A stretch of 64,000 nt of DNA from assembly GCF_003999255.1 (NCBI RefSeq), contig NZ_CP034791.1:701001-765000 (forward strand), in the 5' to 3' direction. This DNA comes from Caldicellulosiruptor changbaiensis. GTDB taxonomy: Bacteria; Bacillota; Thermoanaerobacteria; Caldicellulosiruptorales; Caldicellulosiruptoraceae. The notes beneath the pieces are model-generated. The model did no database searches. It worked only from the letters and a program-made list of their open reading frames with translations, and was not told the DNA's origin. The first letter of the stretch is position 1. Each line of letters opens with the position of its first letter. Position numbers and translations under genes: made by a program. Shown here piece after piece: positions 47,495 through 50,495 of this stretch.

Positions 47495-48334
47495 ATGTAT
47501 AAACTCCTTGCAATTGACCTTGACATGACACTTTTAGACCGCGAAAAGAAAATCTCTCAAAAAAACAAAATGGCGATCAAGCTTGCAAAACAAAAAGGAT
47601 TGCACGTGGTGCTTTGTTCAGGACGAATTCTAAAAGGTGTTATGCACTTTGCAAAGGTTTTAGGGCTTTCCGATGAGGTTGTTGTAGCTTGCAATGGTGC
47701 AATAGTAAGAGACCTTAAGACAAATAAGGATGTATATTACATTGGGCTTGACAATGAGAGTAGCATAGAGATTGCCAAGATATGTAAAGCCAACAATATT
47801 TATTATCACTATTACTACAAGGATATCATGATAGCGCAAAGGCTTGACTATTCATCAAGGTTCTATTATGAAAAAAACAAAGAACTTCCTGATGATGAAA
47901 AAATAGAGATTGTTGTTGATGATTCATTGGAGACAATAAAAAGCTGCGACAATCTAATAACCAAGTTTGTAATTATTGACAAAGACATCGAAAAGGTAGA
48001 TTATGTAAGAAGGCAAATAGAAGAAAATGTTTACAATATTGAAACTACAAAATCAGATGTCAACATTTTAGAGATTATGAAAAAAGGGGTTAACAAGAGA
48101 AATGCGCTTGAGTATGTCTGCTCTTATCTTAAAATAGATAAAAAAGAGGTGATTGCAATAGGTGATAATGAAAATGACTTAGAGATGATTGGGTTTGCCG
48201 GCTTAGGAATTGCAATGGAAAACGCTATAGATAGCCTAAAAGAGATTGCCGACTACATAACAGATTCGTATGAAAATGATGGTGTTGCAAAGGCTATTGA
48301 AAAGTTTGTTTTGGGGGAAATGGTAAATGCATAG
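47495..48334 (+). CDS. Cof-type HAD-superfamily phosphatase
   Basis: The 279-residue Cof/IIB HAD hydrolase has the nucleophile motif LAIDLDMTLLDR. Motif II is in LCSGR, and motifs III and IV are GVNKRNALEYV and AIGDNENDLEMI. A large cap domain lies in the middle. These enzymes dephosphorylate small sugar or cofactor phosphates; the substrate cannot be told. A TATAAT sequence at 47439-47444 may be its -10 box. It overlaps the next gene by 8 bases, implying coupling. Confidence 0.88.
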   Translation: MYKLLAIDLDMTLLDREKKISQKNKMAIKLAKQKGLHVVLCSGRILKGVMHFAKVLGLSDEVVVACNGAIVRDLKTNKDVYYIGLDNESSIEIAKICKANNIYYHYYYKDIMIAQRLDYSSRFYYEKNKELPDDEKIEIVVDDSLETIKSCDNLITKFVIIDKDIEKVDYVRRQIEENVYNIETTKSDVNILEIMKKGVNKRNALEYVCSYLKIDKKEVIAIGDNENDLEMIGFAGLGIAMENAIDSLKEIADYITDSYENDGVAKAIEKFVLGEMVNA

Positions 48335-49454
48335 GGTTGCTATTGTAAGATGTAAGACGTATAATGTGGAGGATGTCAAAGAGGCGCTTGAAAAGGGTAT
48401 AAATCTCTTACAGTTTAAATTTCCAAAATTAAATAAAGTTTTACTAAAACCAAATTTGCTTATGAAAAAAAGGCCTGATGAGGCTGTTACAACCCATCCG
48501 TCTGTGGTTGAAGCAACTGTAAAAATTGCTCAAGAAAAAGTAGATAGAATTGTGATAGCAGATAGTCCCGGTGGACCGTATACAAAACGAAGATTAGAGG
48601 CAATATATCAAACATCAGGGCTAAAAGAGCTTGAAAAATATGAAAAGGTAAGTCTAAATTACGATGTTTCATTTAAGGAGGCTCAGTTAGAAAAGAGTAT
48701 TTTAAAGAAGATTTCATTTATATCACCATATTTTGAATCAGATGCCTTGATTAATCTTTCTAAACTGAAAACTCACAGGATGGCGGTCTATACAGGTGCT
48801 GTAAAAAATCTATTTGGTCTTGTGCCAGGTGGACAAAAGGCAGAACTACATTTTAGGCTTCAAGAAGTTGACAAGTTTATGGAGATGTTACTTGACATCT
48901 ATTCTGCTACAAAGCCCATTTTAAATATCATGGATGCAATTGTTGGGATGGAAGGGGAAGGACCGTCAGCTGGGAAACCACGGAATTTGGGACTACTTTT
49001 GATTTCTCAGGATGCAATTGCACTTGATTATGTTGCATGCAGAATTATTGGGCTTGAAATAAAAGACGTTCCTCTTTTGAATGTAGCAAAGAGCAAAGGA
49101 CTTCTAAACCCTGATGATATTGAGATTGTAGGAGAGCAAATTGATGATGTAAATGTGAAAGATTTTAAAGTGCCACTTCGGCCTGAAATTTCATTTGTAA
49201 GAGGAAGAGCTCCATCGTTTATAGCTAATGTGATAAATGAACTTCTCACTCCAAAGCCGATTTTTGACAGGAAAATTTGTATTGGCTGTGCAGAGTGTTT
49301 TAATGCTTGTCCTGCACAAGCAATTGAAATGAAGAGCAGGAAAGCATATGTTGATTTAAAAAAGTGTATTAGGTGTTACTGCTGTCATGAGCTCTGTCCT
49401 GCAAAAGCTATTATGATAAAGCGGTCATTTTTATTTGAGAAAATACTAAAATAA
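48327..49454 (+). CDS. DUF362 protein fused to a two-cluster ferredoxin domain
   Basis: The 375-residue protein has a DUF362 region with HRVAIVRC, LKPNLLMKKRPDEAVTTHPSVV, VIADSPGG and LSKLKTHRMAVYTGAVKNLFG. Two 4Fe-4S motifs are at the C-terminus (CIGCAECFNAC and CIRCYCCHELC). It is probably a cytoplasmic iron-sulfur protein whose reaction is unknown. It starts inside the end of the HAD phosphatase gene. Confidence 0.85.
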   Translation: MHRVAIVRCKTYNVEDVKEALEKGINLLQFKFPKLNKVLLKPNLLMKKRPDEAVTTHPSVVEATVKIAQEKVDRIVIADSPGGPYTKRRLEAIYQTSGLKELEKYEKVSLNYDVSFKEAQLEKSILKKISFISPYFESDALINLSKLKTHRMAVYTGAVKNLFGLVPGGQKAELHFRLQEVDKFMEMLLDIYSATKPILNIMDAIVGMEGEGPSAGKPRNLGLLLISQDAIALDYVACRIIGLEIKDVPLLNVAKSKGLLNPDDIEIVGEQIDDVNVKDFKVPLRPEISFVRGRAPSFIANVINELLTPKPIFDRKICIGCAECFNACPAQAIEMKSRKAYVDLKKCIRCYCCHELCPAKAIMIKRSFLFEKILK

Positions 49455-49468
49455 GAGAAGGGAGGAAA

Positions 49469-49512
49469 GTCTTGCTTGCTGTCTTAAAAAATTTTGATGA
49501 CAGTGGCAAGAC
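49469..49512 (+). promoter_or_regulatory. Hairpin between the ribosome site and the cheX start
   Basis: GTCTTGC pairs with GCAAGAC (49469-49475 with 49506-49512). After a small internal loop, CTGTC pairs with GACAG (49479-49483 with 49499-49503), closing on an AT-rich 15-base loop. The strong GGGAGG site lies 5' of this stem while cheX begins 10 bases 3' of it. No T run follows. Confidence 0.6.
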
Positions 49513-49525
49513 AGAATTGTTATGA
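49472..49525 (+). CDS. Candidate 17-codon leader peptide of cheX
   Basis: GGGAGG is followed six bases later by TTG 49472. That frame runs 17 codons (LAVLKNFDDSGKTELL after the start) and its stop TGA 49523-49525 overlaps the cheX ATG as ATGA. The cheX ATG has no good ribosome site of its own. This is the layout of translational coupling. The ORF spans both arms of the hairpin at 49469-49512, so ribosomes translating it would melt the stem. The peptide sequence shows no run of a regulatory amino acid. Confidence 0.5.
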   Translation: MLAVLKNFDDSGKTELL

Positions 49526-50001
49526 GTGCAAAGGTGAATGTAGAGTATATCAATCCATTTATTCAAGCAAGCCAGCAAGTACTAAAACAGGTTGCAAACA
49601 TTGATTTTAAACTTGGTAAAGTGTATATTAAAGAACCTACTTACAGGGTGGACCAGGTAGTTGTTATAATTGGAATGACAGGGAATATAAAAGGACAAGT
49701 TAACTTTTGCATGTCTTTAAGTACTGCAAAAAATATTGCTTCACTGATGATGGGTGGGTATCCTGTAAATGAGTTTGATGAGCTTGCCAAAAGTGCAATT
49801 GGTGAGATGGCAAACATGATAATGGGAAACACATCGACACTTTTTTCACAAAAAGGTCTCAAGGTTGAGATAACACCGCCTTCAATACTCATTGGTGAGA
49901 ACATGACTTTAAGTACATCAAAGGTGATAAATATATGTGTACCGCTTTTGCTTGACAATGGTGATAAGATTGATATGGATGTGGCATTTATGGAAAACTA
50001 A
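49522..50001 (+). CDS. cheX: CheY-P phosphatase CheX
   Basis: The 159-residue CheX family protein has one E-x2-N active motif in SAIGEMANMIMGN, the one-site arrangement of CheX. It also has the family blocks VIIGMTGNIKGQVNFCMS and AKNIASLMMGG. It dephosphorylates CheY-P as a dimer. It lies about 5 kb outside the main chemotaxis operon and gives the genome a third CheC-type phosphatase beside FliY and CheC. Translation probably depends on the short leader ORF upstream. Confidence 0.9.
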   Translation: MSAKVNVEYINPFIQASQQVLKQVANIDFKLGKVYIKEPTYRVDQVVVIIGMTGNIKGQVNFCMSLSTAKNIASLMMGGYPVNEFDELAKSAIGEMANMIMGNTSTLFSQKGLKVEITPPSILIGENMTLSTSKVINICVPLLLDNGDKIDMDVAFMEN

Positions 50002-50030
50002 AAGAGGGAGGAGGCTTTTGAAAAACCAAT

Positions 50031-50495
50031 ATGCCAATCAACATTGTACTTCATGAACCAGAAATTCCATACAATACAGGAAATATTGCAAGAACATGTG
50101 CTTGTACGGGAAGTAAGCTTCATTTGATAGAACCGCTTGGATTTTCTTTAGAGGACAAATATTTAAAAAGAGCAGGGCTTGACTATTGGCAATACTTAGA
50201 TGTAAAAATATATAAGGATTTGAACGACTTTTTTGAGAAAAACCGTGATGCCAATGTTTTTTACTTTTCAACCAAAGGCAAGCAGTACTATACTCAAGCA
50301 CCATATACAGATAATTGCTATTTGATGTTTGGAAAAGAGACAGCAGGTCTTCCCCAGTGGCTCATTGAACAGAATATCCACAAGACCTATAGAATACCAA
50401 TGATAAGCGATGTGAGATCTTTGAATCTCTCAAATGCAGTAGCAATTGTCCTTTATGAAGCACTAAGACAGCTTGGGTTTCCTAATTTGGTGTGA
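50031..50495 (+). CDS. trmL: tRNA (cytidine/uridine-34 2'-O) methyltransferase TrmL
   Basis: The 154-residue SpoU/TrmH-class (knotted) methyltransferase modifies the wobble ribose of leucine tRNAs. Motifs are EIPYNTGNIARTCACTG, LMFGKETAGLP and RSLNLSNAVAIVLYEALRQ. An in-frame TGA at 50019-50021 forces the start to ATG 50031. The ribosome site GGAGGAGG then lies 16 bases away, unusually far. A 12-codon out-of-frame ORF from TTG 50018 has a closer site. Confidence 0.92.
   Translation: MPINIVLHEPEIPYNTGNIARTCACTGSKLHLIEPLGFSLEDKYLKRAGLDYWQYLDVKIYKDLNDFFEKNRDANVFYFSTKGKQYYTQAPYTDNCYLMFGKETAGLPQWLIEQNIHKTYRIPMISDVRSLNLSNAVAIVLYEALRQLGFPNLV

Follow-up and report, generated by a model that had tools for sequence, protein, structure and literature searches.

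A hairpin between a distant SD sequence and the start codon probably forms a split ribosome-binding site for cheX in Caldicellulosiruptor and a sister genus

The ribosome-binding site of cheX in Caldicellulosiruptor changbaiensis is probably split by a hairpin that brings the SD sequence and the start codon together. The arrangement was found in a window of 64,000 nucleotides from this 2.9 Mb genome (contig NZ_CP034791.1, positions 701,001–765,000 of the forward strand), and coordinates below are those of the window. Its anatomy, its conservation, its spacing and its confinement to one family are described here.

The cheX gene (49522–50001, + strand) begins with ATG and encodes 159 amino acids, as judged from the open reading frame and from profile matches. 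A profile search places the product in the CheX family (PF13690, E=7.6e-20), and it also matches the NCBIfam model CheX_Thtogales with E=4.4e-35, yet under that model's cut-off. By profile, then, the gene is a putative CheX-family phosphatase gene. Upstream lies a gene for a DUF362 / 4Fe-4S protein (48327–49454, + strand), the stop codon of which ends 5 nt 5' of the sequence GGGAGG; across the family, 12 of 13 genomes have this stop 5–15 nt 5' of the SD core. The genes 3' of cheX are trmL and degV-like genes. The SD-to-ATG spacer of trmL (50010–50033) is long, with 16 nt here and a similar length in most relatives, and a check of this spacer for a hairpin found none.

The region between the DUF362-type gene and cheX consists of an SD core, a hairpin with an interrupted stem and two short flanks, all on the + strand. 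The SD core GGGAGG (49460–49465) is followed by 3 nt (49466–49468) and then by the 5' arm of the outer stem, GTCTTGC (49469–49475), which pairs with GCAAGAC (49506–49512). Within it, CTGTC (49479–49483) pairs with GACAG (49499–49503), and the two inner arms enclose an A/T-rich apical loop (49484–49498) that is variable in both length and sequence. The complete hairpin thus spans 44 nt (49469–49512) with an interrupted stem of 7+5 bp, and 9 nt (49513–49521) separate it from the ATG. The outer 5' arm contains a TTG codon (49472–49474) that opens a frame of 17 codons (49472–49525) with the translation MLAVLKNFDDSGKTELL and a terminal stop. This frame is unconserved and probably does not represent a functional gene.

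On the linear mRNA the SD core lies 56 nt from the ATG and would be too distant to act, and the cheX start in the window lacks any linear SD of at least 4 nt. Once folded, the 44-nt hairpin would leave 12 unpaired nucleotides (3 + 9) between SD and ATG. A 30S subunit bound at the SD would thereby have the cheX ATG within reach, and the TTG at 49472, which lies at the ideal linear distance from the SD, would stay paired inside the stem. Folding likely gives cheX its SD, and opening would remove that SD. We infer in vivo folding of the hairpin, a ribosome able to accommodate it, and dependence of cheX translation on it. The earlier note had stated that cheX has no good site of its own; this is correct for the linear sequence, but not for the folded one, in which GGGAGG is 12 nt from the ATG.

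The comparison set consists of 12 genomes of the genus and one of a sister genus, and an orthologue of cheX was found in all 13. The order SD, hairpin, start is kept in every one of them, in agreement with the earlier suggestion that the hairpin is linked to the initiation site of cheX. The SD core is present throughout as AAGGAGG, AAGGGAGG or AAAGGGGG. The hairpin varies in length from 20 to 44 nt and the linear SD-to-start distance from 30 to 56 nt, but the flanks measure only 2–4 nt on the SD side and 7–9 nt up to the in-frame start, so that the effective distance with the hairpin removed is 10–12 nt in 13/13 genomes. Two of these (G001 and G003) have an additional in-frame ATG 2 nt past the stem, for a total of 5 nt (45–47 nt on the linear sequence); their second in-frame ATG gives an effective distance of 11 nt. 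An effective distance of 10–12 nt is within the working range for SD spacing, given that ordinary genes of this genome most often have 10 nt between GGAGG and ATG, and mostly 6–16 nt. In the sister genus and in G026, a genome of the survey described below, the mode of ordinary GGAGG spacing is 7, shorter than the 10 found here (survey stretches G000, G012 and G026).

Within the genus, the stem shows both compensatory and G-U changes. Among the 12 congeners, 143 of the 144 cells formed by the 12 stem pairs are standard pairs. Two pairs are altered on both sides: at outer pair 7, four genomes have C-G, seven have U-A and one has U-G, while at inner pair 4 there are four genomes with U-A and eight with C-G. 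Additional U-A/U-G and C-G/U-G variants occur, with U-G arising in outer pair 2 and inner pair 5, pointing to pairing at the RNA level. With the sequences aligned by MAFFT, 98.8% of the outer stem is paired, compared with 29.8–70.2% when it is slid by 1–3 columns. The shuffle control for covariation is modest, 8 of 500 shuffles attaining the score. The 12 congeners represent few lineages, and the two-sided changes may amount to just two events plus G-U steps; because of this relatedness their weight is limited. The sister genus carries an unrelated hairpin of 20 nt at the same position, GCTGTGTT AAAA AACACAGC.

One congener (G005) differs in its genomic context. The DUF362 gene upstream of cheX is almost wholly replaced by a transposase-like gene (L004:3-1286, minus strand), and the SD, the hairpin and the start codon of cheX, here GTG, are intact despite this. 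Retention of the layout therefore does not need translational coupling to the DUF362 gene, unless the insertion is recent.

All 13 genomes are predicted to form a hairpin between SD and cheX start. The SD-to-start spacer of the window has a folding energy of -21.2 kcal/mol, as against -9.1 +/- 2.4 kcal/mol for dinucleotide shuffles, none of 1000 being equally low; across the 13 genomes the spacer lies 4.5–6.4 standard deviations under its shuffles, with 0–1 of 1000 as low. The fold of a longer segment of 106 nt gives z=-2.2. In the predicted ensemble the pairing probability of the cheX start codon is at most 0.05, and that of the SD does not exceed about 0.31 at 25 C or 0.19 at 37 C. The stem is mostly folded in predictions at 70–75 C, its stability weakening to between -4 and -8 kcal/mol at 70 C. 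Since the start codon is unpaired and the stem folded at these temperatures, the stem would bring the SD to the start and not hide it. The earlier proposal that the stem conceals the cheX start is at odds with these predictions and with the position of the stem, which ends 7–9 nt 5' of the start codon. A hairpin that sequesters the start codon was ruled out as a candidate, start codon and SD being predicted as mostly unpaired.

The earlier note also read the locus as control by a leader peptide, in which ribosomes would start at TTG 49472, read 17 codons, unfold the stem and then reinitiate at the ATG that overlaps the leader stop. The elements of this reading are all in the sequence: GGGAGG, the TTG 6 nt from this strong SD, the 17-codon frame, the 7+5 bp interrupted stem, and a leader TGA that overlaps the cheX ATG at 49522 as ATGA. 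In addition, TTG (GTG in the sister genus) sits 5–6 nt past the SD in 13/13 genomes, so that initiation there is possible. The alignment of relatives, however, bears out the stem and not the leader frame, whose length, stop position and phase to cheX vary; an unconserved frame was a condition that the note itself had named as refuting its reading. The frame is 17 codons long in this genome and 43 in its nearest relative, which is one base shorter ahead of cheX. Seven genomes have 5 codons and one has 10, two have the frame fused to that of cheX, and in the sister genus it is a GTG frame of 6 codons. The ATGA overlap is confined to one of the 13 genomes, and the cheX start codon lies outside the stem. 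One precedent is the axe-txe minigene, the translation of which raises expression of the txe gene downstream (PMC8708949). Like that minigene, the frame at cheX is short, has its own SD and lies just 5' of the gene; unlike it, the frame is unconserved, whereas start and stop codons of the minigene were shown to matter (PMC8708949). Leader-peptide translational coupling was rejected as improbable, given that neither the leader frame nor its stop is conserved relative to the cheX start. Literature searches on translational control of cheX, the coverage of which largely excluded subscription journals, gave no report among the hits listed.

A different use of the same codon is also unlikely, if slightly less so. 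The folded RNA would yield CheX from the ATG, and on opening by temperature, a helicase or a bound protein the TTG or GTG would be used and cheX turned off. The TTG/GTG is at ideal linear spacing and buried in the stem in 13/13 genomes, and the predicted stability falls at 70 C. The TTG products, however, share nothing across lineages, the TTG position is a consequence of the conservation of the stem arm, and the hairpin matches no known RNA family (Rfam covariance models gave zero matches with E <= 1 over 49200–49800). A regulated switch with an SD common to ATG and TTG rests on little; if true, it would be a start-site selector in which a single RNA fold determines how much CheY-P phosphatase a heat-loving bacterium makes. 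It is quite improbable that the hairpin is instead a processing or stability element for the mRNA of a DUF362-cheX-trmL operon, its position between SD and start being incidental. It does lie within an intergenic stretch of a likely operon, and a search near it for an intrinsic terminator revealed nothing terminator-like, but near-constant flanks of 2–4 and 7–9 nt in 13 genomes, the unrelated hairpin of the sister genus included, would be unexpected. The hairpin sequence is an inverted repeat in DNA as well, and could in principle be an operator or an insertion remnant. This is very improbable, as the stems of these genomes often contain T-G mismatches, which in RNA are G-U pairs, and the 13 genomes hold no second good copy of the cheX hairpin; the one weak extra match, in G005, lacks the SD-hairpin-start layout.

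The SD-hairpin-start layout of cheX appears, on sequence comparison, to be a trait of the Caldicellulosiruptor-type family. The outgroup sample comprised 26 more distant CheX loci (23 from a phylum search and L031-L033), 15 of which could be scored; in these 15 a bridging hairpin was found in none, and an SD-like sequence at ordinary distance in all. The layout was also sought in genome stretches from three genomes, the share of this genome being 865 kb with 807 ORFs. The survey selected genes that lack a good linear SD at every start and combine a distal SD with a bridging hairpin, a case being strong at dG <= -14 kcal/mol. This genome has two strong cases among the 807 ORFs, a small number, versus 0.25 expected from shuffled spacers; at weaker thresholds the observed count of 6 is close to the 3.3 of the shuffles. 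The layout as a genome-wide habit was rejected, there being only two strong cases in 865 kb.

The second strong case (G000:C1:527863, L050:7863) is a gene for an MFS-type transporter, a label assigned from the sequence without a profile search. Its elements are, in order, AAGGAGG, a 12-bp stem GGCTTAGTTTAT/ATAAACTAAGCC, ACAAAAA and ATG. At the corresponding place, the sister genus's orthologue carries a 9-bp hairpin of unrelated sequence. The MFS-type layout is listed for L060 and L061 as well. In another family, a 15-bp hairpin separates GGGGG and ATG of a PIN-domain-like gene (L146, G026:C1:394096; L147, G033:C1:2413116). The 20-nt loop in G033 is the reverse complement of that in G026 but for one base, as would result from an inversion of the loop between its two arms. 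The hairpin is absent from this gene in two other relatives.

Few ribosome-binding sites are known in which a hairpin joins two separated parts, and these are chiefly from phage T4. A hairpin shortens the SD-AUG distance from 22 to 5 nt in T4 gene 38 and from 27 to 11 nt in gene 25, at the gene 26-25 junction (PMC3014915, refs 108 and 109 therein). Mutations that destabilise the hairpin reduce initiation at these split sites, and the gene 25 arrangement is limited to close T-even phages and missing from more distant relatives (PMC3014915). The cheX site resembles both genes in that the SD is too far away on the linear sequence, a hairpin lies between, and the folded spacing is workable (5 and 11 nt in T4, 10–12 nt at cheX). 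As with gene 25, it is located at an intergenic junction and restricted to one clade. Unlike the T4 sites, the cheX site occurs in bacterial chromosomes and is predicted from sequence, it is longer (hairpin 20–44 nt and linear distance 30–56 nt, versus 22 and 27 nt in T4), and the hairpin sequences of the two genera are unrelated. A further comparison is thrS of E. coli, which is repressed by its own product and in which the hairpin precedes the SD and does not separate it from the start. The cheX site shows no sign of repression by its own product, unlike thrS, but its binding site is likewise interrupted by a hairpin. In thrS the ribosome binds the mRNA although a hairpin interrupts its binding site, and this hairpin does not have to unfold (PMC3936740). 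Literature searches for a hairpin between SD and start gave no other clear case beyond T4 within their coverage, which left out most subscription journals.

The cheX site is most likely a further example of this already known type of split ribosome-binding site, with its function deduced from the features described above. Gene finders and models of ribosome-binding sites use linear spacing; where a site is split in this way, they may predict a decoy TTG or a 'leader peptide'. Retention of the arrangement in chromosomes throughout a bacterial family, the unrelated hairpins of its two genera and another gene arranged alike together amount to a set of natural variants that allow tests of how the ribosome accommodates a structured spacer.
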